A DNA stretch of 64,000 bases from Nitrobacteraceae bacterium AZCC 2146 (GTDB taxonomy: Bacteria > Pseudomonadota > Alphaproteobacteria > Rhizobiales > Xanthobacteraceae), in assembly GCA_036924855.1 (NCBI GenBank), contig JBAGRP010000001.1:1426001-1490000 (forward strand), written 5' to 3'. A program made the position numbers and the translations under genes. Shown in pieces: positions 20,885-38,236 of the stretch. How positions within the stretch are numbered: position 1 is the stretch's first letter; every line of letters begins with the position of its first letter. The notes under the pieces are model-generated. The model made no database searches, had not been told where the DNA came from, and worked only from the letters and a program-made list of their open reading frames with translations.

Positions 20885-21565
20885 ATGCGCTCCCTTGTGA
20901 TCGAAGACGAACCACAGATCGGGGCCTATCTCGGCCGTTTGCTCGGGCAGTTCAATGGGATCGTCGATATCGTCGGATCCCTTTCGCATGCTCAGCAAGC
21001 GCTTGGCAATTTCAAGTACGATCTGGCGATCGTCGACCGGATGCTGCCCGATGGCGACGCGCTCGACGTCGTCGCGGCGCTGAGCCAATTGCCGGAAAGG
21101 CCTGCCATCATCATGCTGACCGCCAAGGACGCCAAGGAAGACGTGATCGATGGGCTGAACAGCGGAGCAGACGATTATCTGGGCAAGCCCTTTGAACCGC
21201 AGGAATTCATCGCCAGGGTGCGGGCTGTGCTGCGACGGCCCCGGCTCCTCGTTCCATCGGTCCTGGCGTTTGGAAACGTCGAACTAAACGTCGGCACCAA
21301 TGAGGCCACTGTGGCCGACAAGAAGGTCCTGCTGAGGCGGCGCGAAGCCTTGATCCTCGAAGCGCTGCTGATGCGGCGGGACCGCGTCATCGCGCGCGAC
21401 GCCCTGATCGAGGCGATCTACGGGTTCGATGACGAGATCGAGTCCAATACGCTCGAGGCGCAGGTGTCCCGGCTCCGCAAAAAGCTGGCCGAGCTTGGCG
21501 GCGACGTTGAGATCCGCAGCATGCGGGGCATCGGCTACATTCTCAGGATGGCGCAAACCCGATGA
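20885..21565 (+). CDS. OmpR-family response regulator (TCS1)
   Basis: A 226-residue transcription factor. The ATG at 20885 follows GAGGAAG and opens the standard receiver MRSLVIEDEPQIGAYL; the upstream frame is open but unrelated. The phosphoacceptor is Asp 51 (LAIVDRMLPDGD), the switch Thr is in MLTAKD and the conserved Lys in LGKPFEPQEF. The winged-helix output domain covers 125-222 (LLRRREALILEALLMRRDRV to MRGIGYILR). It resembles the QseB/TctD/PmrA group. It is coupled by ATGA overlap to its kinase, and a box of the right architecture lies upstream. Confidence 0.9.
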   Translation: MRSLVIEDEPQIGAYLGRLLGQFNGIVDIVGSLSHAQQALGNFKYDLAIVDRMLPDGDALDVVAALSQLPERPAIIMLTAKDAKEDVIDGLNSGADDYLGKPFEPQEFIARVRAVLRRPRLLVPSVLAFGNVELNVGTNEATVADKKVLLRRREALILEALLMRRDRVIARDALIEAIYGFDDEIESNTLEAQVSRLRKKLAELGGDVEIRSMRGIGYILRMAQTR

Positions 21566-22929
21566 AGTCGATCACCAGGACGCTGACGCTTTCGCTCAGC
21601 GTGGCTGCAACGGCAATCTTCCTCGTCTTGCTCAGTATCGTGATCTGGCTGGATGTGGCGCGCGAACGTGAGCAAACCTTTTGCCAGGCAGCCGCGGCTA
21701 TCCTCAACCGCGCCACGGTCGTCGATCCGAGCCATGGACTGACTATCCGTTCCACAGACAGTATCGGGGAGTTGAAATCCACCAGCCCAAACCTCTGGTA
21801 CGTCGTGTCCTACGACCGTCTGATGACCGAGTTCGGACGCGAACTCAGACCGGCCCTACCCTTCTCGCTCCCCTATACCGGGCCGATCGGTTTCTCGGTG
21901 CTCAATACGCTTGACCAGAAGAGCTCCTTCTGCCTGGCCGTGGTCCAAAGAGGTGCTTCCGAACTGGTTATGATGATCGGAGGTGCGCAAGTTGGGTTCG
22001 ACCAGATCGTAAGGTCGTTCGTCGTCCGCAACTTTTTCTCCGTTTTTCTGCTTGCCATCGCCCTCGCCTCGACCGTCGCGACCGGCGCGTTCCTGTCTGC
22101 GCGCTTCGTGGCCCGCAGCATCGAACGCGTCACCAGACTAGCGCTGGCAATCGAGCCGACGGCGCCGCAGGCGTCGATTTCGCTCGATGAGGTCCCGGTC
22201 GAGCTCAAGCCGTTGGCCACGGCGCTCAACCGCGCTTTCCATGAGATCGATGCCTATATCCAAAGGCAACGCCGGTTCCTTGGCAATGCGGCCCATCAGC
22301 TCCGAACCCCACTGACCCTGTTGCGCGCGAAGATCGAGGACGTGACCCAACCTGCCTTGAAGGTCGAGCTGGTGCGCGATGTTCGTCGCCTCTCGTCGCT
22401 GGTCTCAGCCATGCTTGACCTGGCGCGGATACAAAATCATGCGATCGAAAAGCGGCCCATTAATTTGGCGGCTGTGACGCGGGACGTCCTTGCGGATTTC
22501 AGCCCCTCCGCGCTGGACGCTGGAATCGAGCTCTCGCTGGAGCAGGTCGAGGAAGGCCCCCTCGTGGTGCAAGGCGTCGAAGCTGCGGTTCGGAGCGCCT
22601 TGGCTAACCTGGTCGGCAATGCATTGGTGCATGCGCATGGCGCCGGACGCGTCGTGGCCAACCTCGATCGCGGGAGCGTGTCTATCTGCGACGATGGGGC
22701 TGGAATCTCTCCAAGCTCCGAACGCATCGAGCTATTCCAAACGGGTAACCCTTCAAAAGAGGGGTCCGGACTCGGCCTATCTATCGTTCAGGAGATCATG
22801 GCAGCCCACGGAGGGACGCTGATCATCACATCGACTCCAGGACGCGGAACGATGGCCGCCCTCCGTTTTCCCGAGGCTTCTGATGCAACGCCCGACAAAT
22901 CCGGATCCGGCAACATTGAGGCAACGTAG
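21562..22929 (+). CDS. Sensor histidine kinase (TCS1)
   Basis: A 455-residue inner-membrane kinase. Helix 1 is at about 12-31 and helix 2 at 158-178. They bracket a periplasmic sensor of about 125 residues with two cysteines (C41, C124). A HAMP-like linker follows, then the H box GNAAHQLRTPL with His 245 (Gln replaces the usual Glu after the His). The ATPase domain shows the N box ALANLVGNAL, the G1 box DDGAGISP and the G2 box GSGLGLSIVQEI. This is the QseC/TctE layout. Its start overlaps the response-regulator stop. The ligand is unknown; the envelope genes nearby suggest a cell-surface signal. Confidence 0.9.
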   Translation: MKSITRTLTLSLSVAATAIFLVLLSIVIWLDVAREREQTFCQAAAAILNRATVVDPSHGLTIRSTDSIGELKSTSPNLWYVVSYDRLMTEFGRELRPALPFSLPYTGPIGFSVLNTLDQKSSFCLAVVQRGASELVMMIGGAQVGFDQIVRSFVVRNFFSVFLLAIALASTVATGAFLSARFVARSIERVTRLALAIEPTAPQASISLDEVPVELKPLATALNRAFHEIDAYIQRQRRFLGNAAHQLRTPLTLLRAKIEDVTQPALKVELVRDVRRLSSLVSAMLDLARIQNHAIEKRPINLAAVTRDVLADFSPSALDAGIELSLEQVEEGPLVVQGVEAAVRSALANLVGNALVHAHGAGRVVANLDRGSVSICDDGAGISPSSERIELFQTGNPSKEGSGLGLSIVQEIMAAHGGTLIITSTPGRGTMAALRFPEASDATPDKSGSGNIEAT

Positions 22930-25862: not shown

Positions 25863-26645
25863 TCATCGCGTCGGATCGGCGTTGCTCGCGCGCTCGCCTT
25901 CGAAGGTCACCCATGCGACGAGTGCGACGATCACAGTGAGAAACGCGAGGCTGGTGTAGATCGTGCCGAGACCCGCGCCGCCGTAGTTGCGGGACTGCGA
26001 AAGCAAGTCGCCCAGCGAAGCGCCGAGGGGGCGCGTGAGGATGTAGGCCAGCCAGAAAGTGAGAACCGGGTTTGCGCCGAGATAGTAGGCGAAAGCGATG
26101 AGCGCGATCAGCGCGGAGAACACGAGGACACCCAATTGGAAACCAAGGCCGAGGGCCTCGGTCGCCAGATCGCCTGCCGCTGTTCCGAGCGCGAAAGTGA
26201 ATAGAATCGCAGCCCAGTAAAAAAGCTCGCGCCGCGAGGTGACGATGGTGTGAATTGAAAGCGTCTGCTCAACGCCGTACCAGGCGGCGAAGATCGCGGC
26301 CAAGATACAGGCAAACGCTGCTGTACTCAGGTAGAGGCTGATCTCCAGTTTGTCGGTGAGCAAGTCGGTAATCTGCGTACCGACGACGCTGACCAGGACT
26401 ACCGTCAGCCAATAGATCCAGGGAACGTAGCTTCGTGCGCGCAGCTGAAGGGCCAGCGCGACCACGAGGAAACCGACCGTGATCGCGGCAGTCGTGCTTG
26501 CGCCGAGGCCGACATGCACGGCAAGATAATCGGCCCCGGTCTCGCCGACGGTGGTCGACAGGATTTTGATGAGCCAGAAGATCGCGGCGACTTCAGGGAC
26601 CTTATTAAGCAACAGTGCGAAGCTCGGGTTCGCGGTGACGGGCAC
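25863..26645 (-). CDS. Four-repeat membrane protein, COG4705 (copy 3)
   Basis: A 260-residue membrane protein. The GTG at 26645 is chosen because AAGGAG lies seven bases upstream; a longer frame to 26720 is not supported. Repeats open with FWLIKILSTTVGETGAD, YWLTVVLVSVVGTQITD, YWAAILFTFALGTAAGD and FWLAYILTRPLGASLGD. About eight helices are expected. It is the first gene of the leftward operon 26645-24529. A CTAAG-N6-CTAAG box lies 65-80 bases upstream of its start, so it is a likely direct target of the adjacent response regulator. Confidence 0.83.
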   Translation of the reverse strand: MPVTANPSFALLLNKVPEVAAIFWLIKILSTTVGETGADYLAVHVGLGASTTAAITVGFLVVALALQLRARSYVPWIYWLTVVLVSVVGTQITDLLTDKLEISLYLSTAAFACILAAIFAAWYGVEQTLSIHTIVTSRRELFYWAAILFTFALGTAAGDLATEALGLGFQLGVLVFSALIALIAFAYYLGANPVLTFWLAYILTRPLGASLGDLLSQSRNYGGAGLGTIYTSLAFLTVIVALVAWVTFEGERASNADPTR

Positions 26646-26709
26646 GTCGTATCTCCTTGAAGGAAATTGCGGGCAACTCGAAAGCGATGCCGGACCATGG
26701 CGACGCCAA

Positions 26710-26725
26710 CTTAGGCGCACCTTAG
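26710..26725 (-). promoter_or_regulatory. CTAAG-N6-CTAAG box upstream of COG4705 operon
   Basis: On the coding (minus) strand the site reads CTAAGGTGCGCCTAAG: two identical pentamers with an exact 11-base period, as in PmrA/BasR and other OmpR-type operators. It ends 65 bases before the GTG of the COG4705 gene at 26645. The same architecture recurs at 26796 and 37149. Confidence 0.68.
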
Positions 26726-26795
26726 AGGGAGAGTTTTTTGACGGGCCGCGACAATGTGTTGAGCCACGCGAAAGCGCCTGTTCATCGCTTCCGTT

Positions 26796-26811
26796 CTAAG
26801 TCTGCGCTAAG
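26796..26811 (+). promoter_or_regulatory. CTAAG-N6-CTAAG box upstream of TCS2
   Basis: On the coding strand of the response-regulator gene the site reads CTAAGTCTGCGCTAAG. It ends 129 bases before the ATG at 26941. It points away from the box at 26710, so the intergenic region carries one box per divergent operon. Confidence 0.66.
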
Positions 26812-26940
26812 TCGGGGAATGGAGAACCGATGACCTTTCCGGATCGGAACAACCACCGTGCATGACAAAACGGCAGCCTGGCGTAGGGTCGAAATGTGGA
26901 GGCGAACGTTGCCTTTGGCATCCCGGATGAGGGATCGAGC

Positions 26941-27603
26941 ATGCGGGTTCTGCTGATCGAGGACGACAAGATGGTAGGCGCAGCCGTCGAGCAGGCGCTC
27001 AGGGACGCGGCCTACGCAGTTGACTGGGTGACCGACGGCGAGACCGCTATCCATGCGGCAGAGAACGAGGCCTATGAGGTGGCATTGCTCGATCTTGGGC
27101 TGCCGGTGGCGGATGGTCGTGAGGTGCTGCGCCGGCTTCGCTCGCTTGGCCGGAAGCTTCCCGTGATCATTGTGACCGCGCGGGATGGCATCGACGACCG
27201 GATCGATGGCCTCGATCTTGGTGCGGACGATTATCTGGTAAAACCGTTCGAGATCCGCGAATTGCTGGCGCGCATGCGCGCAGTGCTTCGCCGCGAAGGC
27301 AGTGGTTCACCCGCCCTGCTTACCAATGGCAAGCTTCACCTTGATCCGGCAACACGGGAAGCCGGCTTCCTCGGGGAGACATCGCTGCTTACCGCCCGCG
27401 AGTTCGCCTTGCTTTCTGCGCTATTGACGCGGCCGGGTACGATCCTGTCGCGCAGTGAGCTCGAACGGCAAATCTACGGCTGGAATGAAGAAGTCGAGAG
27501 CAACGCGATCGAGTTTTTGATCCATATGATCCGAAAGAAGCTGGGCGCCATGGCCATCCGAAATGTGCGCGGCGTAGGGTGGATGGTGGATCGCCCGTCA
27601 TGA
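26941..27603 (+). CDS. OmpR-family response regulator, PmrA/QseB type (TCS2)
   Basis: A 220-residue regulator starting at the ATG of MRVLLIEDDKMVGAAVEQAL; a 15-codon longer frame has no better start. The phosphoacceptor is Asp 51 (ALLDLGLPVADG), the switch Thr lies in IVTARD, and the conserved Lys is in LVKPFEIREL. The winged helix spans about 125-218 (LLTAREFALLSALLTRPGTI to VRGVGWMVD). Within the OmpR family it fits the PmrA/QseB group, whose known boxes are CTTAA-type pentamers 11 bases apart. The three CTAAG boxes here fit that rule. It overlaps its kinase gene by ATGA. Confidence 0.92.
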   Translation: MRVLLIEDDKMVGAAVEQALRDAAYAVDWVTDGETAIHAAENEAYEVALLDLGLPVADGREVLRRLRSLGRKLPVIIVTARDGIDDRIDGLDLGADDYLVKPFEIRELLARMRAVLRREGSGSPALLTNGKLHLDPATREAGFLGETSLLTAREFALLSALLTRPGTILSRSELERQIYGWNEEVESNAIEFLIHMIRKKLGAMAIRNVRGVGWMVDRPS

Positions 27604-28937
27604 CAAAGTCCCTGCGCACGCGTCTCTTCGTCGGGTTGACCGCAGTCATCCTGTTGGCGGGCTGTGTTGGTGGCGTGTTTGCCTACATCTGGGCATTCGA
27701 TGAGGCGATCGAGATGCAGGATTCGATCCTGATACAGATCGGCAGCCTTGCGCAGAACGGCAGCATCAAGAGTGACCAATCACTTCACGGCGTTGATGCG
27801 GACGCAGAGGTCATGTTCATGGAATTGGGAACGGCTCCTCATGGCTCGGCCGAGGACCGTCAACTCTGGAGCTTCCAGGACGGCTTGCACGTGGCGTCGC
27901 GCAACGGTCGATCGATGCGGGTACTATTGCGAACGCGGCCCGATGGAAGTCGATTTGCCGTGGCGCAAGGCACGGCCATACGAGACGAGATAGCGAGCAA
28001 CATGGCGCTTCGTACGCTCCTCCCGATCGCCGCGCTCATTCCGTGCCTTCTGCTGGTTACGGCTTTGGTCATCGCGAGGTCGCTGCGTCCGATGGTGCGA
28101 CTGGCCGGCGATCTCGACGTCAGGCGTGCCGACGACATGACCCCGATTCCGTGGGCGGGTACACCCAGCGAGCTCCATCCGTTCATCGCGTCGATCAACG
28201 GGTTGCTGGAGCGAATGAGGCTGATGATGGATCAGCAACGGCGTTTCGTCGCCGATGCGGCGCACGAATTGCGGACTCCCATCACCGCACTCAGTCTGCA
28301 AGCAGAGAATCTTGATCCGGTTGACCTCCCTGAGGAAGCGCGCCAACGTCTGGTCGCGCTCAAGCAGGGCATGCGTCGCACCAAGCATCTGCTTGAACAA
28401 CTGCTCGCGCTGGCGCGACATGAGGTGGGCCCGTCCAGTAAAGCCGCAGTGGTGCCGTTGGACCGCATCGTGAAGGACCTGGTGGCCGACTTGCTGCCGG
28501 ACGCTGCTCGCAAGGGAATAGATCTTGGCTTCGAGCTTATCGAGCCGATCGCGACGAGGGGCGAACCTGTCGTGATCGCAACGATGATCAGGAACTTGAT
28601 TGACAATGCCGTGCGCTTCACTCCCCAGGGCGGCCGTGTCGATATCGGGGTCTATCGTGCGGGTGAACAGGCCATTCTACAAGTCGAGGACACGGGTCCG
28701 GGTATTTTGCCAAGCGATCTCAATCGCATATTCGAACCGTTCTTCCGCGGTAGCCGGCCAACGGAGGACGGAACAGGACTTGGCCTGTCGATCGTAAAGC
28801 GCATCGTCGACCGGCTCGGAGGTTCAGTTGTGCTGGAGAATGTTTCCGGTCCAGCTTCGACTGGCCTTCGAGCGACCGTCCGTTTCCCCGCATCAAATGC
28901 CGGTTTCGGGCCAGTCCGCATGGATGCCCCAGACTAG
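27600..28937 (+). CDS. Sensor histidine kinase, PmrB/QseC type (TCS2)
   Basis: A 445-residue membrane kinase. Helix 1 is at about 9-31 and helix 2 at 139-160, with a periplasmic domain of about 110 residues between them. A HAMP segment (SLRPMVRLAGDL) precedes the H box FVADAAHELRTPI with His 222. The catalytic domain shows the N box IRNLIDNAVRFTP, DTGPGI and GTGLGLSIVKRI. The length and short periplasmic domain match QseC/PmrB. In known members this domain senses metal ions, pH or cationic compounds. Here the signal is unknown. Confidence 0.92.
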   Translation: MTKSLRTRLFVGLTAVILLAGCVGGVFAYIWAFDEAIEMQDSILIQIGSLAQNGSIKSDQSLHGVDADAEVMFMELGTAPHGSAEDRQLWSFQDGLHVASRNGRSMRVLLRTRPDGSRFAVAQGTAIRDEIASNMALRTLLPIAALIPCLLLVTALVIARSLRPMVRLAGDLDVRRADDMTPIPWAGTPSELHPFIASINGLLERMRLMMDQQRRFVADAAHELRTPITALSLQAENLDPVDLPEEARQRLVALKQGMRRTKHLLEQLLALARHEVGPSSKAAVVPLDRIVKDLVADLLPDAARKGIDLGFELIEPIATRGEPVVIATMIRNLIDNAVRFTPQGGRVDIGVYRAGEQAILQVEDTGPGILPSDLNRIFEPFFRGSRPTEDGTGLGLSIVKRIVDRLGGSVVLENVSGPASTGLRATVRFPASNAGFGPVRMDAPD

Positions 28938-28968
28938 GTACCGGCGTCGAACTCTTGCAGCGAACCAA

Positions 28969-29175
28969 TCAGCGCTGGCCCGGTCTTGCCACGTTTGAAA
29001 GAAGGACGCCGAGACACCCAAACAGGAGGATGGCGCCCGCCGCCAATGGAACGTCCGGGATCAGCATTGCCACGATTCCGGCGAGTGCGACGATCGCAAT
29101 GATCGCAAGCGCAAGCGCGCCGTCGTCGACGAACAACCCAGCCAGCTCTCGCAACATGTTGGCCAGCGCGGTCAC
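28969..29175 (-). CDS. Small two-helix membrane protein
   Basis: A 68-residue protein read from a GTG that overlaps the stop of the COG4280-like gene (GTGA at 29175-29172), so it is translationally coupled to it. Two hydrophobic helices are evident (ALALAIIAIVALAGIVAMLI and AGAILLFGCLGVLLS) joined by PDVPL. It ends 31 bases from the convergent kinase gene. No family recognised; probably an accessory subunit of the upstream transporter-like protein. Confidence 0.55.
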   Translation of the reverse strand: MTALANMLRELAGLFVDDGALALAIIAIVALAGIVAMLIPDVPLAAGAILLFGCLGVLLSNVARPGQR

Positions 29176-29924
29176 GACAAAACCTCCGCCCGCGGGCGAC
29201 GCGCCAGGACAACCGCCGCGCCGCTGACAGCCAGAAACATTACCGCAAACGCGACGATCGCGAAATCCGCGCCAGGCCAGGCCACGCCGAGACCTTCACC
29301 GGTCCAAAACACGCCAAATGCCGACAGCATGATGCCGACAGCGAATTTGAGCGTGTTTTCCGGAACCCGCGCCAACGGCCGATGCACGATCAAGCCCACG
29401 GCAGCGACGAACAGACAGGCCGCAACGGCGCCTGCGCTCGCAGGAATGAGCATTCCGCGACCAGCACCGAGCGCAATCACGATGAACACGACCTCGAGTC
29501 CTTCGAGAAGGACCGCCTTGAAGGTCGTCAGCGCCGCGATCCAATCGAGCCGCGCCTCGTTGCGGCGGGCCTGCTCGCGCAATTCCGCCGTTTCGGTCGC
29601 AAAGGCCATCGCCTCGTCATGCAGCGGGATCACGCCGGCCGCACGTAGGATCGCCTTTCGCAGCCAGCGCATGCCGAACAGCAGCAGCAGGACTCCGATC
29701 ACGAACTGCAGGAGCCGCAGCGGAACATGGCCGAGCAAGGGTCCGAGCGCCACCACGATCAGGGCCAGTACCGCAAGGCCGGCGAGCGCGCCAAGACCCG
29801 CTGGACGCCAGCCGCGAACGGTGGCGACGGCCAGCACGATGGTCAGCGCTTCGACCGCCTCGACCAGCGAAGCCAGGAACGCGGCTGCCATTGCCGGCCA
29901 GATGAGTGCCAAACTACTTGTCAC
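29172..29924 (-). CDS. COG4280-like integral membrane protein
   Basis: A 250-residue protein with six or seven helices. Two intramembrane acidic motifs stand out: SLVEAVEALTIVLAV in helix 1 and VLLEGLEVVFIVIALG in the middle. The latter resembles the REGLE motif of FTR1 iron permeases, with Leu in place of Arg. A cytoplasmic or periplasmic loop (HDEAMAFATETAELREQAR) separates the halves, and the two halves may be a duplicated unit. I infer a cation-transport role. It follows the di-heme peroxidase gene by 60 bases and probably belongs to the same operon. Confidence 0.72.
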   Translation of the reverse strand: MTSSLALIWPAMAAAFLASLVEAVEALTIVLAVATVRGWRPAGLGALAGLAVLALIVVALGPLLGHVPLRLLQFVIGVLLLLFGMRWLRKAILRAAGVIPLHDEAMAFATETAELREQARRNEARLDWIAALTTFKAVLLEGLEVVFIVIALGAGRGMLIPASAGAVAACLFVAAVGLIVHRPLARVPENTLKFAVGIMLSAFGVFWTGEGLGVAWPGADFAIVAFAVMFLAVSGAAVVLARRPRAEVLS

Positions 29925-29983
29925 ACGATGCCTCCGCGAGCCCGCATTTTCTGTTGTATGTATATTGAACGTGCAGCATCGAT

Positions 29984-31486
29984 TTACTGCCGATTGAGAG
30001 GTGCATCGCCGTCCGTCAGGGTCTGCATAAAGCTCACGAGCGCGTCCTCCTCTGCGTCAGACAGGCCGAGGTGCCCAACCTTGCTCGTGTTCATGTTGTC
30101 GGTCGACTCCGGCGCAGGCCAGCATGTCGTACCTTCGCCGGGATCGTGCGGTTTGCAGCGCGACAGCACGTCGCGCGTGTTGTAGAAATGTACGATCTGC
30201 TTCAGGCTCGTGAAGTATCCGTTGTGCCCGTAGGCCTTCACGAAGGCGGGATATGGGCGCTTGTCCACGTTGCGCAGTGTCGGCACCTGAATTCGCGCCT
30301 GATTGTCTGGCGCCAATTTCAGCCATCGTTGATCCACCGCGGAGGGTTGGCTGAGTAGATGTCCGTTGCTGAGAAAAGTACCGACACCGCCATCGACGAA
30401 TGACGATCCTAGCGGATTGGCGACATAGCCCAGCGCGTCGGGCCGATTTTCCCCATAATAAGGAAGCCTCGGGTTGGCGGGAGTGCCGATATTGCTGGCG
30501 GTGAAGTCGGTAAACAGCGGATCCTCGCCAGGTCCGCCGTCACGGTGACATTCGTTGCATCGCGCCTGACCGCGGAACAGATCGTATCCCTGTTGCTCCT
30601 GCGTCGTGAACTGTGCCTTGTTGGCGCGCACCGCATCGAATTTCGAGGTGAACGCCGTGACCTCAGCCGAGGCCTCGTAGCCGGCGATGGATTGCGCCAT
30701 CTGATCGAAGGTGGTGCCGACCCGCCCGCGATCAACCGGGCTAAGATGAACCGGCAAGAGATCGCCGGCGGTCGCCGGCCCGGGCCGCTCGCAAACCCGC
30801 TCCACGTTATCAGGCCACGCGATCGCGAAGGCTTGCGGTCCCCATACACCTTCAAAGAGGGCGCGATAGGGCCGCTGCGAAGCGCGGTAGATCGCGCAGG
30901 CCACGTCAGGTAGGCCCATTTCCACCGGGTTGGTAGGCGGTCCTTCGGCCTGTTCCGCGGCCGGGTTGCCCAGCCGGCGGCCGGTCGCACGCATGTCCCA
31001 GAAATTGCCCCCGACGAGATCGCCCTGCGCGGAATTGTAATGCAGAACCGGCGAAAGCGGCGCGTAGGCATGCGACTGCGGCTTGCGATTGCTAAAGCGG
31101 GTTCGCACCGATCCGGGATAGGAGCCAGTGGTCCGGTTCAGCTCCGACACCGGGCCCGTAAAGCCGGTCTCAGGCATATGGCAGAACGCACAGGCTTCGT
31201 TGCGGTTTACCGAGAGTTGCTTGTCGTACAGCATCAACTTGCCCAGCAACTCGACTTGCTGGACCTGATTATCCGGCGGCCCGGCAAGCCGCTCGATCGC
31301 CGCTGCCTCGATGCGGTCGATCTCGGCCTCGAGTTGGGCAATCTCTTGCTGCGCCCGAGGCGAGAGCGGTGCGTTGCTCTCCTCCGCGCCCAGCGCGTTT
31401 GCGCCCATGGAGGTGAGGATTATGATCGCTGCAAACGACAACACCGCGCGCGGCCTCCTGCGCGCGGCTGGATCACTAAATCGCAT
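29984..31486 (-). CDS. Di-heme cytochrome c peroxidase-family protein
   Basis: A 500-residue periplasmic electron-transfer protein. After an N-terminal signal (AVLSFAAIIILTSMGANALG) come an amphipathic helix and two CxxCH heme c sites: CAFCH near residue 110 and CNECH near 310. The first precedes the MPETGFTGP segment and the second the DGGPGEDPLFTDF segment, as in the CcpA/MauG superfamily. It is longer than classical cytochrome c peroxidases (about 330), with insertions between the heme domains. Its start lies within the last bases of the OpgC-like gene (11-base overlap), so the two are co-expressed. Substrate may be peroxide or a protein partner. Confidence 0.87.
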   Translation of the reverse strand: MRFSDPAARRRPRAVLSFAAIIILTSMGANALGAEESNAPLSPRAQQEIAQLEAEIDRIEAAAIERLAGPPDNQVQQVELLGKLMLYDKQLSVNRNEACAFCHMPETGFTGPVSELNRTTGSYPGSVRTRFSNRKPQSHAYAPLSPVLHYNSAQGDLVGGNFWDMRATGRRLGNPAAEQAEGPPTNPVEMGLPDVACAIYRASQRPYRALFEGVWGPQAFAIAWPDNVERVCERPGPATAGDLLPVHLSPVDRGRVGTTFDQMAQSIAGYEASAEVTAFTSKFDAVRANKAQFTTQEQQGYDLFRGQARCNECHRDGGPGEDPLFTDFTASNIGTPANPRLPYYGENRPDALGYVANPLGSSFVDGGVGTFLSNGHLLSQPSAVDQRWLKLAPDNQARIQVPTLRNVDKRPYPAFVKAYGHNGYFTSLKQIVHFYNTRDVLSRCKPHDPGEGTTCWPAPESTDNMNTSKVGHLGLSDAEEDALVSFMQTLTDGDAPLNRQ

Positions 31487-32693
31487 GGCGGACCCCTTTG
31501 CTGGAACCGGCGTTTTGGTTCGCGACTGGTTCGCTGCGTTCCAGCTTCAATAACGGCGGCAAATGCGCTGCAAGAACGGCTCGATCTTGCTGTCTGAACC
31601 ACGTCAAATAGCATGCGCTTGCGGTCATGAGAAATATTCCGATAGCGCCCACGAAGATTTGAACCCAAAGCGAATTCAGGCTCAGTTCGATCGCGGCATG
31701 GGCACAAAATGACAGGACGATGCCAAGGCAAAAGACTGGTAGCGAGTTCCGGCCACACTGGATTAGCGGTGCCAGCGCGCGCCATTGCAGAATAGGCGAA
31801 TCCACCGGCAGGAGCCGCGTGACGACAACAGCGAGAGCAATGAGATGCACCACCCGGTAGGGCGCGAGATTGGTCTTATCGTTGGGATCGAACGGCTCCA
31901 GCATCCAATGTGGAATCAAACCGACGAGGTCTGGTGCGCGAATGGCTATCGTCACAACGAAAGCAAAGATGATGTAGGCGATCGCCAGCCAGAATGCCGC
32001 CCTGGTTCGAATGATCGATTGAATGGCTTTGGCGCCGCCCAAGGCGATCCAGGCCCCCAGGAAAAACAGCAGCTGCCAGGTGAACGGATTAAAATACCAA
32101 AGGCCGGATGGAGAGGCCGGAAGATTCCAGCCAAAATGCCTTGTGGCAAAATACAGGACCAGCGAGCCAACCAGTGTCAGCGTCGGTTTGCGAACCATGA
32201 GCCACAAGGCCGGAGCGAATGCTCCCAACAGCAGAATATAGAGAGGAAGCACGTCCAGATTGACGGGTTTGTATCTCAGAGCCAGCGTCTGGCTAAGTTG
32301 CCAGAGCGGCTTGCTGATGAAAACAGCGACGTTGAACTGGTTCAGGTCATCCGGATCGTGAAACTCGCGCGAGACGCAGGCAATAACCGCGATATAGATG
32401 ACGACCACGATGATGTGAGCGGCATATAGCGTGAAAGCGCGTTTTGCTAACCTCAGCGCGGCCGCCATGTAGCCCCGCTCAATCATTACTCTTCCGAATA
32501 CAAACGCGGCCGTATAGCCGGATACGAACACAAATAAGTCGGCGGCATCGCTAAAGCCGTAATTCTTGCTTGTGATCCAGCTCAACACTTCGTCCGGAAT
32601 GTGGTCGAGAAAAATCGCCCAATTCGCCAGGCCGCGAAACAGGTCCAGCCTGACGTCTCGTCCGGCGAGAGGAAGATTTGCGCAAACCCGCAT
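31476..32693 (-). CDS. OpgC-like integral membrane acyltransferase
   Basis: A 405-residue membrane protein with about ten helices. It begins RDVRLDLFRGLANWAIFLDH, the usual OpgC N-terminus, and contains SDAADLFVFVSGYTAAFVFG, WLMVRKPTLTLVGS and the central NPFTWQLLFFLGAW. OpgC proteins transfer succinyl or acetyl groups onto periplasmic glucans. Rhizobial relatives may modify other envelope glycans. The gene starts 13 bases after the RND adaptor stop and overlaps the di-heme peroxidase gene, so it sits in the middle of the long leftward operon. Confidence 0.85.
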   Translation of the reverse strand: MRVCANLPLAGRDVRLDLFRGLANWAIFLDHIPDEVLSWITSKNYGFSDAADLFVFVSGYTAAFVFGRVMIERGYMAAALRLAKRAFTLYAAHIIVVVIYIAVIACVSREFHDPDDLNQFNVAVFISKPLWQLSQTLALRYKPVNLDVLPLYILLLGAFAPALWLMVRKPTLTLVGSLVLYFATRHFGWNLPASPSGLWYFNPFTWQLLFFLGAWIALGGAKAIQSIIRTRAAFWLAIAYIIFAFVVTIAIRAPDLVGLIPHWMLEPFDPNDKTNLAPYRVVHLIALAVVVTRLLPVDSPILQWRALAPLIQCGRNSLPVFCLGIVLSFCAHAAIELSLNSLWVQIFVGAIGIFLMTASACYLTWFRQQDRAVLAAHLPPLLKLERSEPVANQNAGSSKGVRHAI

Positions 32694-32706
32694 GGAGCGC
32701 GCCCTA

Positions 32707-33897
32707 CTACTGCGACGTTTTCGAAGCAGATGCGGTTGCGGTAACGGGCGGCGTCGCGGCTGCTACGCGGACCGTGTCGCCTGTTGTCAATGTTTCCGGG
32801 GGACTATTGATAATCCGATCGGACGGTGTCAGGCCGGCAACGACCTCCACACTGTCACCGAGATCGCGGCCCAGTTGCACGCTCTTCAGGACGACCTTGT
32901 TATTGCTGTCGAGCACCGCGACCTGCGTGCCCTGATTGCCGGTTACCAGCGCAGTCGAAGGAACCTTCACCAAATTCGCGTCAGTCGGAATTTCGAAGTG
33001 CACATTGCAGTAGCTGCCGCCAAAGAATTTTCCGGCTGCATTGTCGGCCTGAAGCTCGACCTGCATGCTGTGCGAACTCGCATTGATCGACTTGGAAATA
33101 TGAGAGAGCGTCGCGTCGAATTGCACACCGGGGTATTGCGGCAATTCGAAAGTCGCTTTCATTCCTGGAGCAAGCCCTGCGGTGAACGATTGCGGCACCT
33201 GCACATAGATGCGTACGCGATGCAGGTCCGATACCTCGAATAACGGCTGACCGGAACCGCCCGAGTTGATCAGCATTCCGAGCTCCACACTTCGGGCCGT
33301 TACGACGCCGTCAAAAGGAGCCACTAGCGTCTTGAACGATTGCATGGCCTCGAGCTGCCGCACGTTGGCTACATTCGCGTCGACCACAGCTTCTTTCGCC
33401 TTGGCGTCGGCTGATGTCTGATCTGCAAGCTGCTGGGCAACGATCTGCTTTTGCAGCAGGACGTTGTTCCGGTCGGCGGTCAGCAATGCGATTTGATGAT
33501 TGGCCCTTACACTCGCCAAAGTTGCCTTCGCCTGGCCCAACTGCTGATCGAGATCGGGAGCATCGATGGTGGCCAGCACCTGCCCAGCCTTGACGGGCGA
33601 TCCGATGTCGTGGTCCCAGCTCTTCACGTAACCATTCACGCGCGCGAAGATCGCCGCGCGGTTGAAGGGTTGGATATTGCCTGGCAGCGTCAGCGTCTGG
33701 TGCGGGCTGCCGGGGATGGGCTGAGCGAGGGCAACGGTCGGGATGGCCTGCGCGCTCGTCCATTGCACGACTTCCTGCTTGCTCTGCGCGCGGTTCATGA
33801 AACCATAACCGACCACGACGCTCGCAAGGAGAACCGCGGCGGTGGCGGCCGTCAGGAGGCTTCGCCGACTTGGAGCTTTAATGTCTTCCGAGGGCAT
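32707..33897 (-). CDS. RND efflux periplasmic adaptor (MFP) subunit
   Basis: A 396-residue membrane-fusion protein. A single N-terminal helix (RRSLLTAATAAVLLASVVVG) anchors it. The biotinyl-lipoyl half motifs are QPFNRAAIFARVNGYVKSWD on one side and APFDGVVTARSVELGMLINS on the other. They flank a coiled-coil hairpin rich in Ala/Gln (residues about 115-185). The beta-barrel and membrane-proximal domains follow to residue 370. It connects the inner-membrane RND pump to an outer-membrane channel; no TolC-like gene is in the window. It lies 17 bases after the RND permease gene. Confidence 0.9.
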   Translation of the reverse strand: MPSEDIKAPSRRSLLTAATAAVLLASVVVGYGFMNRAQSKQEVVQWTSAQAIPTVALAQPIPGSPHQTLTLPGNIQPFNRAAIFARVNGYVKSWDHDIGSPVKAGQVLATIDAPDLDQQLGQAKATLASVRANHQIALLTADRNNVLLQKQIVAQQLADQTSADAKAKEAVVDANVANVRQLEAMQSFKTLVAPFDGVVTARSVELGMLINSGGSGQPLFEVSDLHRVRIYVQVPQSFTAGLAPGMKATFELPQYPGVQFDATLSHISKSINASSHSMQVELQADNAAGKFFGGSYCNVHFEIPTDANLVKVPSTALVTGNQGTQVAVLDSNNKVVLKSVQLGRDLGDSVEVVAGLTPSDRIINSPPETLTTGDTVRVAAATPPVTATASASKTSQ

Positions 33898-33914
33898 TTT
33901 GTTTGGTTCTCCGC

Positions 33915-36900
33915 TTAATGCGATGATGTGGTTACGGCGTCCGCCTGATTTGTGGTGTCAGGCTGCCAGGCGTGCACCAGGCTGAAGATGGTGGGCACCA
34001 AAAACAGGGTGGCGCAGGTGGCGAAGATCAGCCCGCCGATCACGGCGCGTCCCAGTGGTTGGTTCTGTCCGGCCTCGACCGCCATCGGCAGCATGCCGAT
34101 GACCATGGCGAGCGCCGTCATCAGCACCGGGCGAAACCGCGAGCCGCCCGCTTCGAACGCGGCTTCCATGGCACCGACGCCCGCCGCCATCCGTTCACGG
34201 GCAAAGCTGATCACCAGAATGCTGTTGGCGGTTGCCACACCCATGCACATGATGGCGCCGGTGAGCGCCGGAACGGAAAGTGTCGTGCCGGTCCCGAACA
34301 GGATCCAGACGATGCCCGCCAAGGCCGTCGGCAGCGCCATGACGATGACGAAGGGATCGATCCAGGATTGGAAGTTGATGACGATCAAGAGGTAGATCAG
34401 CACGATCGCTGCCGCGAGACCGACGAAGAGCTGCTGATAGGCGCTTGTCATCGTGCTGACCTGGCCACGCAGCGCGACACTCGCACCCTTGGGCAGATCC
34501 TTTGCCGTGTCGCGGATCGCCTTTTGAATGTCAGCAGCGAGCGCACCTAGGTCCCTCCCCTGCGGCGTCGCAAAAATATCGATCACAGGCTGAACGTTGT
34601 AGTGCGACACGACGGCGTTGCTGTTGCTACGCTGGACCTGCGCCAGCCCGCCAAGCAGCTGGGTATTGGCGGCAGCCGCTGATGTCACCGGAATGTTTTG
34701 CAGACCGGTCATGGTATTGATATCGCGCTGCGGGGTCTGAACCGAGACCGCGTAGGAAACGCCGTTGGCCGGGTTCAGCCAATAGGTCGGGGCAGATTGC
34801 GAGCTACCCGACAGTGTCGTCAGCATGGCGGTGGCGACGTCCTTTTCGGTGAGGCCCGCAAGCGAGGTGAGCGAGCGGTCGACATTGACGTCAAGCGTCG
34901 GCTGCTGAAACGCCTGCTGGATGCGCGCATCGGCAATGCCCGGGATTGCCCTGATTTTTGTCAGCAATGAATTTGCATACTTCCGATTTGCGGCAAGGTC
35001 CCTGCCCGCAACCTGCAAGTCGATCGGCGCGGGCACACCGAAATTCAGGACTTGGCTGACGATATCGGCTGGCAGAAAGGCGAAGCTCGTGCCGGGGAAC
35101 TGCTGCGGCAGCCTCTCGCGCATGGTCTTGATGTAATCGTCGGTCGGCGCGTGATTAGGCTTGAGGCTGATCAGGATGTCGGCGTCGCCGACGCCGATGG
35201 TGCCGGAGTTGTTATAGGCCATGTTGATGCCGCTGACCGTGAGTCCGATATTGCTCACGATGCCGTCGAGTTCGCCTGACGGAATGATGCCGTGAATGGC
35301 GGTCCCGACCTGGTCGGTCAGGCTGGTCGTTTCCTCGATCCGCGTTCCCGTCGGCGTCCGGGTATGAAGTTTTATCTGGCCGGCGTCCACGGTCGGGAAG
35401 AAGTCCTGGCCGAGATAGGGCGCAAGGCCGAATGACAAAATGCTGAAGACCAGAAATCCGGCGATCACCTTGACCCGGTTGCGCAGGCACAACTGCAGCA
35501 GGCCCTGATACCCGTTGCGGATGTTCTCGAACACATGTTCGAAGCCGCGCTGAAAGCCCGCAAGCGGATTGCGGCTGACCTTGGGCTGACAGCCCTCATC
35601 GGCCGTGACATGGACGTGTTGATTGCGCAGGAAATAGTTTGCCAGCGTCGGCACCAGGGTACGCGACAGCACATAGGAGGCCGCAAGCGCGAGCATCACC
35701 GCTTCGGCGAGCGGACGAAACAGGTAGCCGGCGACGCCGCCAAGCCCGAACATCGGCACGAAGGCGATGCAAATGCAGAGCAGCGACACGGTCGCCGGCA
35801 CCACGATCTGCTGCGCGCCGTCGAGAATGGCGGGCTCGATCTCCTTGCCCTGCTCAAGATGCCAGTTGATGTTCTCAATGGTGACGGTGGCGTCGTCGAC
35901 GAGAATTCCGACCGCGAGCGCCAGGCCGCCGAGCGTCATGACATTGATGGTCTCGCCCAGCAGCGAAAGGCCGGTCAACGCGGCCAATATAGCCAACGGG
36001 ATGGAGAGCGTGATGATGAGGGTCGAGCGCCAGCTGCCGAGGAACAGCAGGATCATCGCCCCGGTCAGCGCTGCCGCGATCACGCCTTCCCTGATGACGC
36101 TGGACACCGCATCGGTCACGAAAACGGATTGATCGCCCACCGCGGTCAGTTTCAGGCTGCCCGGAAGCGTCTGCGATACCGAAGGCAGCAGGCTCTTAAC
36201 GCCGTTGATGATGTCGAGCGTCGAACTCGCGCCCGCCTTCATGATGGTCAGCAGCACGGCGCTTACACCGTTGACGTGAACGGCGTTGGTTTGCGGCGGG
36301 CTGCCGTCATGTACATAAGCCACGTCACGCATATAGATGACGGTGCCGTTGACGGTCTTGATCGGAAGATCGTTGAAGGCTTCGACCGCTTTCGGCGAGT
36401 CGTTCAGGTTGACGGTATACTCGTATGTGCCAATTTTCTGGGTTCCGACCGGCGTGATCAGGTTCTGCAGCGAAAGCGCGTTGATGACGTCGTTGGCGGA
36501 AACGCCGTATTGATGCAGCGCCTGCTGATTGAGGTCGGCCTGCACCTGGCGCACCTTGCCACCGAACGGAAGCGGCAGCGCGGCACCTGGAACCGGAGCC
36601 AGCGCTGGGCGGATGAAATTCAGCGCCGAGTCGAATATCTGGGTTTCCGACATCTGGTCGCTTGAAAGCGCGAGCTGCAGAATGGGAACGCTCGAGGCAT
36701 TAAAACTCAGGATCAGTGGCGGGGTGATGCCCGGCGGCATCTGCTTCAGCACCGTCTGCGACATGCCGTTGACCTGCGCCAGCGCGGCATTGATGTTCAC
36801 GGTCGGCTGAAAGAAGATCTTGATGATCCCGTAGTTCACGATCGACTGGGACTCGATATGCTCGATGTCGTTGACGCTGTTGGGTAGCGACCGCTCGTAG

Positions 36901-37100
36901 AACGTGACGATGCGGCCGGCCATATCGTCGGCAGGCAGACCGGTGTAGCTGAAAACCACGCTGATGACGGGAATGTTGATGTTCGGGAAGATGTCGGTCG
37001 GCGTCCGCAGCGCCGACGCTGTGCCGAAGATCAGGATCAGCACCGCCATGACGACGAACGTATACGGCCGCCGCAAGGCGAGCCGAACGATTCCAATCAT
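33915..37100 (-). CDS. RND efflux permease (HAE1-like)
   Basis: A 1061-residue inner-membrane pump. The ATG at 37100 is preceded by GGAG six bases upstream; a TTG four codons before it is less likely. It has the RND layout: helix 1 (RPYTFVVMAVLILIFGTA), a large periplasmic loop, helices 2-6 with the charged core motif GGLALAVGILVDDATVTIEN in helix 4 (paired Asp), a second large loop, and helices 8-12. The VDD pair is typical of HAE1 multidrug pumps rather than of heavy-metal CusA types. It is the first gene of the long leftward operon and has a CTAAG-N6-CTAAG box 49-64 bases upstream. Confidence 0.92.
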   Translation of the reverse strand: MIGIVRLALRRPYTFVVMAVLILIFGTASALRTPTDIFPNINIPVISVVFSYTGLPADDMAGRIVTFYERSLPNSVNDIEHIESQSIVNYGIIKIFFQPTVNINAALAQVNGMSQTVLKQMPPGITPPLILSFNASSVPILQLALSSDQMSETQIFDSALNFIRPALAPVPGAALPLPFGGKVRQVQADLNQQALHQYGVSANDVINALSLQNLITPVGTQKIGTYEYTVNLNDSPKAVEAFNDLPIKTVNGTVIYMRDVAYVHDGSPPQTNAVHVNGVSAVLLTIMKAGASSTLDIINGVKSLLPSVSQTLPGSLKLTAVGDQSVFVTDAVSSVIREGVIAAALTGAMILLFLGSWRSTLIITLSIPLAILAALTGLSLLGETINVMTLGGLALAVGILVDDATVTIENINWHLEQGKEIEPAILDGAQQIVVPATVSLLCICIAFVPMFGLGGVAGYLFRPLAEAVMLALAASYVLSRTLVPTLANYFLRNQHVHVTADEGCQPKVSRNPLAGFQRGFEHVFENIRNGYQGLLQLCLRNRVKVIAGFLVFSILSFGLAPYLGQDFFPTVDAGQIKLHTRTPTGTRIEETTSLTDQVGTAIHGIIPSGELDGIVSNIGLTVSGINMAYNNSGTIGVGDADILISLKPNHAPTDDYIKTMRERLPQQFPGTSFAFLPADIVSQVLNFGVPAPIDLQVAGRDLAANRKYANSLLTKIRAIPGIADARIQQAFQQPTLDVNVDRSLTSLAGLTEKDVATAMLTTLSGSSQSAPTYWLNPANGVSYAVSVQTPQRDINTMTGLQNIPVTSAAAANTQLLGGLAQVQRSNSNAVVSHYNVQPVIDIFATPQGRDLGALAADIQKAIRDTAKDLPKGASVALRGQVSTMTSAYQQLFVGLAAAIVLIYLLIVINFQSWIDPFVIVMALPTALAGIVWILFGTGTTLSVPALTGAIMCMGVATANSILVISFARERMAAGVGAMEAAFEAGGSRFRPVLMTALAMVIGMLPMAVEAGQNQPLGRAVIGGLIFATCATLFLVPTIFSLVHAWQPDTTNQADAVTTSSH

Positions 37101-37148
37101 AGCGCTCTCCAATGTGAGACGATGTTGCCGTCGCCATAGCCGCCAACC

Positions 37149-37164
37149 CTTAGGGCCGCCTTAG
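37149..37164 (-). promoter_or_regulatory. CTAAG-N6-CTAAG box upstream of RND operon
   Basis: On the coding (minus) strand the site reads CTAAGGCGGCCCTAAG, followed by GGTTGGCGG. The COG4705 box at 26710 is likewise followed by TTGGCG. Pentamers are identical and spaced 11 bases, like the boxes flanking TCS2 some 10 kb away. It ends 49 bases before the permease ATG. A LysR gene starts 122 bases to the right, so that regulator could also act here. Confidence 0.68.
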
Positions 37165-37285
37165 CGCGCCGGTGCCCATGCCATTGCTCGGCTGAGGCGC
37201 ACTGTTCCAACCGACAATCCCGAATCTAGGGTTGAGTTTCGCATTCGTAAAATGCATTCTCTTTATCCCCACATGTTCATTCTGA

Positions 37286-38236
37286 ATGATGGGATGGAGT
37301 ACCAATCGCTTGACCAAACCGGCTCCCAGACTGGGTGCGATCGACCTGAACCTGTTGGTGGTGTTCGACGCCATTATGAGGGACAGATCCGTCACGCGGG
37401 CAGGACTCCGACTGGGCCTCAGCCAGCCTGCGATGAGCCATGCCCTGACCCGATTGCGTCACATGCTGAAAGACGAGCTGTTTGTCCGCAGCCCAAACGG
37501 AATGGTGCCGACGCCGCGGGCCGAGGAACTCGCCACGCCGATCAGGATTGCACTCGACGGGCTGCAACAATCGCTGGAACCCATGAAGTTCGACCCGTCA
37601 ATGGCGACGGCAACGTTCCGCATTGCCGTCGACAATTATGCGGCGATCGTTCTGGTTGCTCCGATTGCGGCACACGTTGCCAGGACTGCTCCCGGGGTGA
37701 GGCTGGATTTTCGGCCGAGCGGCACGTTAGACGTGCTCGAACGGCTTGATCGAAGCGAGCTGCATTTGGCGATGGGTCCTATAGGCGTCCAGGGCGAGCG
37801 GTTCTCCCGGCGGCGGTTGCTGCAGGATCAATTCGTCGTAGTGCATCGCAAGGGGCATCCGGCCGCGAAAACGAAGGAGTTCTCGACCGAGAAGCTGGCA
37901 ACGCTGCCGCAACTGGAAATCTCGTCCGCTCAGTTCGGGCCCGATTTTGCCGAGACCGGCCCTGAAAGATCAAAGCTCGGCCCAAGAGCGGCGATGCGTG
38001 CGCCATTCTTGTCAGCGGCGCCGATTCTGGCGACATCGGACCTGGTATCGGTGCTTCCGCTCAACGTCGCCAAAAGCATGACAAGGTCCCACCAGCTTGT
38101 TTACCGCCGACTGTCACGTTCGCCGAAGCCGATCGACGCCGCCATGATTTGGCTGCGGCGGCTGGACAACCAGCCGGCACATGCGTGGCTGCGTGATGTC
38201 ATCGGTCGCGTGACCGGTGACTTGCAGGACACCTGA
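37286..38236 (+). CDS. LysR-family transcriptional regulator (NodD-like branch)
   Basis: A 316-residue regulator. The N-terminal part reads LGAIDLNLLVVFDAIMRDRS, then VTRAGLRLGLSQPAMSHALT (HTH at about 20-75). The effector domain starts ATATFRIAVDNYAAIVLVAP and includes LHLAMGPIGVQGERF. This is the NodD/LinR-like branch. The first ATG (37286) overlaps a 13-base palindrome, TCATTCTGAATGA; a TTG 24 bases further with GGAG upstream is an alternative start. Divergent from the RND operon, it is the obvious local regulator for that pump, in addition to TCS2. Confidence 0.87.
   Translation: MMGWSTNRLTKPAPRLGAIDLNLLVVFDAIMRDRSVTRAGLRLGLSQPAMSHALTRLRHMLKDELFVRSPNGMVPTPRAEELATPIRIALDGLQQSLEPMKFDPSMATATFRIAVDNYAAIVLVAPIAAHVARTAPGVRLDFRPSGTLDVLERLDRSELHLAMGPIGVQGERFSRRRLLQDQFVVVHRKGHPAAKTKEFSTEKLATLPQLEISSAQFGPDFAETGPERSKLGPRAAMRAPFLSAAPILATSDLVSVLPLNVAKSMTRSHQLVYRRLSRSPKPIDAAMIWLRRLDNQPAHAWLRDVIGRVTGDLQDT

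Follow-up and report, generated by a model that had tools for sequence, protein, structure and literature searches.

An operator-like CTAAG pair linked to a PmrA/BqsR-type regulator and an mmf-related module in Nitrobacteraceae bacterium AZCC 2146

Three described systems frame the locus considered here, and the papers on them are cited from excerpts. In Pseudomonas aeruginosa, the response regulator BqsR/CarR binds TTAAG(N)6TTAAG, requires the 6-bp spacer and acts as an activator; a change of T1 to C costs nearly 10-fold of expression (PMC4682146). PmrA/BasR boxes are of the CTTAAG-N5 type, with half-sites CTTAAT and CCTAAG at Klebsiella pneumoniae pbgP (PMC3973317). The mmf cassette of the Tn5053-type transposon Tn6048 is strongly induced by zinc/lead, with its function stated to be unknown (PMC12029693), and high induction by metals, zinc and lead, is reported for the genes of Tn6048. 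The locus compared with them lies in a 64,000-nucleotide stretch of Nitrobacteraceae bacterium AZCC 2146, a relative of Bradyrhizobium (contig JBAGRP010000001.1, positions 1,426,001 to 1,490,000; hereafter the window), in which the pattern CTAAG-N6-CTAAG (hereafter the box) stands exact in three copies, before a DUF347 membrane protein operon, a regulator-kinase operon and an RND efflux operon. These boxes had been reported in a first-pass annotation made from the letters alone, each on the coding strand of the gene that it precedes, and a pattern scan of the window confirmed both their positions and their orientation:

26710..26725, minus strand: box 1, CTAAGGTGCGCCTAAG, exact match lying 64 bp upstream of the ATG (26645) of the DUF347 operon; T at 26709, A at 26698
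26796..26811, plus strand: box 2, CTAAGTCTGCGCTAAG, exact match lying 129 bp upstream of the ATG (26941) of the regulator-kinase operon; T at 26812, A at 26823
37149..37164, minus strand: box 3, CTAAGGCGGCCCTAAG, exact match lying 48 bp upstream of the start (37100) of the RND operon; G at position 16, A at position 27

We propose that the box probably serves as operator for the response regulator at 26941, which would activate its own operon, the divergent DUF347 operon and, in this lineage, the RND operon. The genome-wide search that the first-pass annotation had suggested covered one contig of 7,640,769 bases (7.64 Mb) and returned four exact boxes, three of them in the window and within 10.5 kb; the fourth looks like noise. 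Rarity by itself is not striking, because the reversed control pattern is about as frequent (5 vs 4), but the clustering of three of the four in 10.5 kb is, the chance of finding at least three in one given 64-kb stretch being 2.3e-6. At up to one mismatch, the window holds five matches against a shuffle mean of 0.76 (five or more in 0 of 100 shuffles), and the genome holds 41 sites against 313 for the reversed control. CTAAG (TAA) and CTTAG (TAG) give stop codons in two of the three frames of each strand, and the box is therefore depleted in genes and in the genome. When the pattern was extended to CTAAGN6CTAAGTN10A, with two bases that are discussed below, the genome gave two sites at 0 mismatches, one at 1 and 61 at 2, against 255 in all for the reversed control, and the best three sites were the three boxes of the window, with box 3 ranking third.

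The link between box and regulator extends to other genomes. Close relatives of the regulator were taken as matches at E<=1e-80, a threshold fixed once the genus search was complete and the family search still to come. In the genus set of 18 genomes, a regulator of at least 76% identity is found in G000, G004, G005 and G013, and a box adjoins it in 4/4; none of the eight genomes whose best relative reaches at most 53% identity holds a box, and among the six without a regulator match at 1e-50, one stray box each was found in G008 and G010. Across the family set (296 genomes), the box is present in 23/23 genomes with the regulator and in 54/273 others (Fisher p=2e-15), so that 77 genomes bear it; the 54 without the regulator mostly hold one or two sites. 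Measured by coordinates, 21 of 26 regulator genes lie no more than 460 bp from a box, and 26/26 lie within 3.1 kb of one on the same contig, the distance being 1.7-3.1 kb in G056, G107, G178, G220 and for one of the two genes in G258. Conservation of the box beside orthologues, which the first-pass annotation had named as a check on its proposal, thus extends to all four genus and all 23 family genomes with the regulator. That the box is operator-like, and goes with this regulator and the DUF347 operon from genome to genome, is supported.

The surroundings of these boxes were compared in 36 fetched stretches and named plasmid and genome loci, with genes called by a simple codon model. The 32 regulator loci contain 66 boxes, or 61 distinct contexts when identical ones are counted once. 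With position 16 as the base right after the box, T16 is present in 55 of the 61 and A27 likewise in 55, although neither was used to find the boxes; apart from the pentamers and these two bases, no single letter makes up more than 64% at any position from -20 to +64. A27 is kept before DUF347 genes (23/24), regulator genes (15/15), PepSY genes (5/5) and RND genes (2/2). In contrast, 20 unlinked boxes from genomes without the regulator (at least those in the loci returned from such genomes) have T16 in 2 and A27 in 5, and nine isolated boxes in genomes with the regulator have T16 in 3 and A27 in 2. Imperfect boxes follow the same pattern: in 33 loci (the 32 plus locus L009 of a Delftia plasmid), 20 of 32 one-mismatch sites have both T16 and A27, and 12 distinct sites among these 20 precede a gene, several of them regulator or DUF347 genes that seemingly lack a box. 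Their pentamer changes fall at base 3 (1), base 4 (2) or base 5 (9), never at C1 or T2.

These results bear on the simplest alternative, namely that the boxes are chance repeats and that CTAAG pairs gather between genes through their stop codons. The near-parity with the reversed control in the genome would fit, as would the position of unlinked boxes, 28/29 of which also lie outside genes. Nevertheless, regulator linkage, the conserved T16/A27 pair and the occurrence of one-mismatch boxes at these same promoters all speak against it, and the contrast in T16/A27 with unlinked boxes under the same stop-codon constraint contradicts chance, which we regard as highly improbable.

Position 27 lies within a putative -10 hexamer at positions 26-31, with the conserved A as its second base. 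On this placement the box would end 10 bp upstream of the hexamer and cover about -38 to -23. The candidate elements of the window are:

26694..26699, minus strand: candidate -10 element CATGGT, 10 bp after box 1; its A27 is the base conserved in 55/61 linked vs 5/20 unlinked boxes
26822..26827, plus strand: candidate -10 element GAGAAC, after box 2, with the same geometry
37133..37138, minus strand: candidate -10 element TATGGC, after box 3, with the same geometry; box and hexamer are both altered in a second RND copy of this genome

PhoB- and PhoP-type sites are placed much like the box relative to the -10 element, and a fixed distance suggests contact with RNA polymerase. The fixed T16/A27 geometry suggests an activator site at the promoter. 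A repressor that covers the promoter would also fit the placement, with the second half-site between -35 and -10, but we consider it improbable: the constant distance argues for polymerase contact, BqsR, which reads the same type of pentamer pair, is an activator (PMC4682146), and the Tn6048 genes are highly induced by metals, though derepression could also give induction.

Some boxes lie apart from the regulator or before other genes. In G013, three exact boxes are found in an island without a regulator nearby (L180, contig C75), the regulator of this genome being on two other contigs; they were excluded from the 66 linked boxes. Two of them have both T16 and A27, while the third has A27 only and stands before an OMF-MFP-RND operon whose proteins fall into the same clusters as those of the box-linked operon of L181. 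The island probably belongs to the regulon as a distant member. In other loci, genes for PepSY, PAP2, VTT/DedA and PMT_2 proteins are among those linked to boxes. At L187:3092, L191:12242 and L184:16876, an exact box lies some 264 bp upstream of genes that form one cluster, the L191 member of which has a caspase-type Peptidase_C14 domain. L184, L187, L191 and L199 are near-identical islands in which a regulator copy with VxGD rather than EDD as its N-terminal acidic residues accompanies a second, ordinary-looking copy.

The genes concerned have a described counterpart. According to the first-pass annotation, no described system had this composition; this is not borne out, since the core of DUF347, hypothetical, DUF347, regulator and kinase genes matches the mmf cassette of Tn6048. 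The Delftia locus L009, which encodes PepSY, UppP, DUF347, hypothetical, DUF347, regulator, kinase and EamA proteins beside Tni genes, has the order and nearly the same gene lengths as that cassette (PMC4914505). Spacing and strand suggest three operons in the window, running from 26645 to 24529 (DUF347, 133-aa protein, DUF347), from 26941 to 28937 (regulator, kinase) and from 37100 to 28969 (RND permease to 68-aa protein), with the following genes:

25863..26645, minus strand: DUF347 (COG4705) membrane protein a, mmfC1 relative; Pfam PF03988 in 4 stretches; 67% identity to the Tn6048-like copy in L009
25392..25793, minus strand: 133-aa protein between the DUF347 genes, mmfD relative; without Pfam match; 66% over 93 residues to L009
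24529..25302, minus strand: DUF347 (COG4705) membrane protein b, mmfC2 relative; Pfam PF03988 in 4 stretches; 72% to L009
26941..27603, plus strand: OmpR/PhoB-type response regulator, MmfR-like, predicted reader of the box (Pfam); 60% to L009; box presence tracks this gene
27600..28937, plus strand: sensor histidine kinase, MmfS-like (Pfam); 38% to L009; ExxE just past the first membrane helix in the alignment
33915..37100, minus strand: RND efflux permease, first gene of the third operon; Pfam ACR_tran
32707..33897, minus strand: RND membrane-fusion protein; Pfam HlyD_D23
31476..32693, minus strand: OpgC-type acyltransferase; Pfam OpgC_C
29984..31444, minus strand: di-haem cytochrome c peroxidase/MauG family protein; Pfam CCP_MauG, three NCBIfam matches under cut-off
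29172..29891, minus strand: OFeT/GDT1-like cation transporter membrane protein; Pfam OFeT_1 above cut-off, GDT1 below; relative in L005 annotated TMEM165/GDT1
28969..29175, minus strand: 68-aa protein, last in the RND operon; without Pfam match; relative in L005, 72% over 58 residues

Two DUF347 genes thus flank an mmfD-like gene next to an MmfR/MmfS-like pair, and the likeness extends to the box. Tn6048 with its mmf cassette is known from Cupriavidus metallidurans and Variovorax pHB44/pBS64. One-mismatch boxes with T16 and A27 precede mmfA and mmfC1 in C. metallidurans CH34, which has three Tn6048 copies (L296), and Variovorax pHB44 (L297), as they do on a Burkholderia plasmid (L298), and L009 has two one-mismatch boxes with A27 in the same places. 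These copies are closely alike and count as one observation. No operator for mmf was found described in the open-licence literature searched, as far as its excerpts go. The window module differs from mmf in that it is chromosomal, divergent in two operons, and joined by the added RND/OpgC/di-haem operon. Because neither PepSY (mmfA) nor UppP (mmfB) was found in the window by tblastn, we class the module as related to mmf and not as an mmf module proper; judged by sequence, it appears to be an alphaproteobacterial relative of the cassette. DUF347 has been proposed as a possible lead-related transporter in Frankia (PMC4531530, from an excerpt). Two further papers, PMC8999054 and PMC8069873, were rejected as DUF347 sources, their excerpts holding DUF3470.

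Membership of the RND operon, which the first-pass annotation had included in the regulon, stands in some genomes only. Among RND relatives of at least 79% identity, a box is found before the window copy, in G005 (56 bp from the start) and at the end of contig 41 of G027 (42 bp, compared with 48 here); both keep A27, and the G027 16-mer is identical to box 3. No box was found in the start regions of G268, G013 and G143 (at least 79% identity, readable start), at the partial match of G014 (86%) or in the plasmid locus L005, and in the contig 13 copy of G027 the box is altered; G012, with 5′-truncated matches only, was left out of this count. This genome also holds a second RND copy outside the window (G000:C1:145220-148402; L293), 94% identical and with one internal TAG, upstream of which the box and the -10-like hexamer are both lost or altered. 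Between the LysR and RND genes, at window positions 37165-37285, runs a stretch CAACCCTAGATTC...GATTGTCG, a candidate LysR-type site, common to L005 and the second copy, both of which lack the box.

It could be, then, that the box operates the regulator and DUF347 operons only, that the RND box is a recent or chance gain of little consequence, and that the RND operon is run mainly by the divergent LysR-type regulator at 37286. The relatives without a box (the second copy, G268, G013, G143, G014 and L005) and the shared intergenic stretch fit this explanation, which we nevertheless hold to be unlikely, though not markedly so: the boxes of G005 and G027 keep A27 at a similar distance from the start, the RND box is the third-best site for the extended pattern in the genome, and unrelated-looking OMF-MFP-RND operons in G013, in L181 and L180, also have boxes. 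On the preferred reading, in which the regulator at 26941 acts on all three operons of the window, the RND operon appears to be a sporadic member of the regulon.

Under that reading, the kinase at 27600 would be activated, probably by an envelope metal-cation signal, and the phosphorylated regulator would bind as a dimer, its subunits head to tail on the two CTAAG half-sites. The box, in the place of the -35 element and part of the spacer, with the putative -10 element 10 bp downstream, would then allow recruitment of RNA polymerase, turning on the regulator's own operon, the divergent DUF347-hypothetical-DUF347 operon and, in this lineage, the RND/OpgC/di-haem/GDT1-like operon. The kinase offers some indication of the signal. 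An ExxE sequence just after the first membrane helix was seen by eye in the alignment of 27/35 kinases and reads EAIE in the window kinase; the eight without it include four near-identical rows, and window_20, the kinase of another pair, was dropped from the count. That second regulator-kinase pair of the window (20885-22929) has no exact CTAAG box near it. P. aeruginosa BqsS binds Fe2+ and is stimulated by it; E48 of an ExxE-type sequence is the residue that binds the ion, and signalling also depends on E45 and N49 (PMC12666569, in the excerpt available). Since ExxE is kept as in BqsS, the window kinase may sense a metal. A different signal, cationic envelope stress or antimicrobial peptides as in PmrAB, with DUF347, PAP2/UppP, DedA-like, OpgC and PMT_2 proteins remodelling the envelope, would agree with the PepSY, PAP2, VTT/DedA and PMT_2 genes linked to boxes in other loci and with PmrA as the best, if below cut-off, NCBIfam match of the regulator. 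The reported zinc/lead induction of Tn6048 and the ExxE sequence in most of the kinases point away from it, and we regard it as doubtful, with the proviso that the metal-signal and envelope-stress ideas overlap.

Several observations weigh against the proposed operator function. Many of the linked loci are related, so the counts are not independent. L010, with a regulator 67% identical, has no box within two mismatches in the 4.6 kb examined, and the Methylobacterium plasmid module L299 has none within one mismatch; L011 holds only a two-mismatch site, with base 5 changed in both halves and with T16/A27, about 100-130 bp before a PepSY gene. Four of the 61 linked boxes lie more than 300 bp from any gene, and A27 is less regular at these (2/4) and before other genes (8/11). 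The link to the RND operon is sporadic, and in G027 its box is present although no regulator reaches E<=1e-80. The downstream pentamer of BqsR is reported, in the excerpt available, to overlap -35, whereas here it is read between -35 and -10. The zinc/lead induction comes from another species, whose kinase is only about 37-38% identical. Lastly, the first-pass annotation had proposed asking whether the box is commoner upstream than in coding regions; it is, with 0/66 linked boxes inside called open reading frames, but this is largely the stop-codon effect and no evidence of function, as unlinked boxes behave alike (1/29).

The relation to PmrA and BqsR can be drawn more closely. The regulator has a receiver domain and a Trans_reg_C winged helix (Pfam), which is the architecture of OmpR/PhoB response regulators. 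Members of that family bind direct half-sites in tandem, and a box of this tandem direct form is present and linked to the regulator gene. BasR/PmrA is its best solved-structure match, and the PmrA equivalog NF007928 its best NCBIfam match, at 212 bits below the cut-off of 330; the QseB equivalog NF007663 scores 207.2 bits, below its cut-off of 345. The suggestion of the first-pass annotation that the box has the architecture of a PmrA/OmpR-type operator is supported, the match being to operators of the PmrA/BqsR type. The 11-bp period of the box is that of the PmrA/BasR box, while the regulator differs from PmrA at recognition-helix residues 192-193. Near 80 more distant regulators (40-67% identity), TTAAG recurs at period 11 with 22 counts against 1.5 at other periods (both strands; 13 loci), CTAAG in 3 loci, and some G+C-rich words are also raised; A27 is present at 15/28 TTAAG sites, both strands of palindromes being counted. 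In the same 80 loci (up to 10 kb on each side, many shorter), the only loci in which tblastn found DUF347 are L011, L014 and L021, and each of these belongs to the CTAAG branch described below. CTGAC pairs at period 11 (13 vs 2.25 at other periods), seen in L040, L042, L046, L065, L069, L070, L077, L083 and L087, are perhaps another operator type.

In a tree of 116 regulators, whose root is not known and whose labels denote a box nearby, not proof of reading, the 35 CTAAG-labelled rows fall on one branch (support 100/96) together with six unlabelled rows, beside TTAAG-linked regulators; the 13 TTAAG rows need two changes. L178_2 was removed from this tree, and L008 was relabelled CTAAG by hand, its CTAAG boxes lying outside the scanned stretch. 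Residues 192, 193 and 214, in a numbering that agrees by alignment with K. pneumoniae PmrA, are among the sharpest differences between the two groups in the DNA-binding part. Residue 192 is F28 Y3 V3 in 34 CTAAG rows and V13 Y1 in 14 TTAAG rows, residue 193 is L31 F2 M1 as opposed to H7 Y5 F1 L1, and residue 214 is W34 as opposed to Y13 W1, the odd TTAAG row being L008, whose locus also contains CTAAG boxes. Bases are read by N188 and N196 in PmrA of K. pneumoniae and contacted by T187, V192 and H195 (PMC4660055, from an excerpt). Because the residues follow the branch, their match with the operator is a correlation, not proof.

Taken together, the box is a real, conserved operator-like element with activator-like geometry, attached to an mmf-related module whose control is a variant of the PmrA/BqsR type. 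As for composition, the module is less novel than the first-pass annotation had claimed; what is useful is the operator, its link to mmf and the T-to-C difference on one branch. The mmf cassette is zinc/lead-induced and transposon-borne. With an operator defined, its regulon can be read off the sequence of many genomes and its signal can be tested directly. Tentatively, and with somewhat less than even confidence, we suggest that a single specificity change, which turned TTAAG into CTAAG by altering base 1 of each half-site, gave rise to a separate PmrA/BqsR-type clade and insulated a mobile metal-stress module (DUF347, MmfR/MmfS) from resident TTAAG regulators, together with mostly F-L instead of V-H/Y at residues 192-193 and W instead of Y at wing residue 214, and that DUF347 would be a new type of cation transporter at the core of this module. 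The closest comparison is BqsR, judged from the published excerpts: the two systems share a pentamer pair, the 6-bp spacer and orientation with the coding strand, and BqsR promoters are activated, but BqsR has 432 candidate sites at up to two mutations where this genome has three good ones, and its box begins with T where this one begins with C. The contrast with BqsR, to which C at that first base is costly, is a natural example of how the operators of sister regulators may be insulated from each other.

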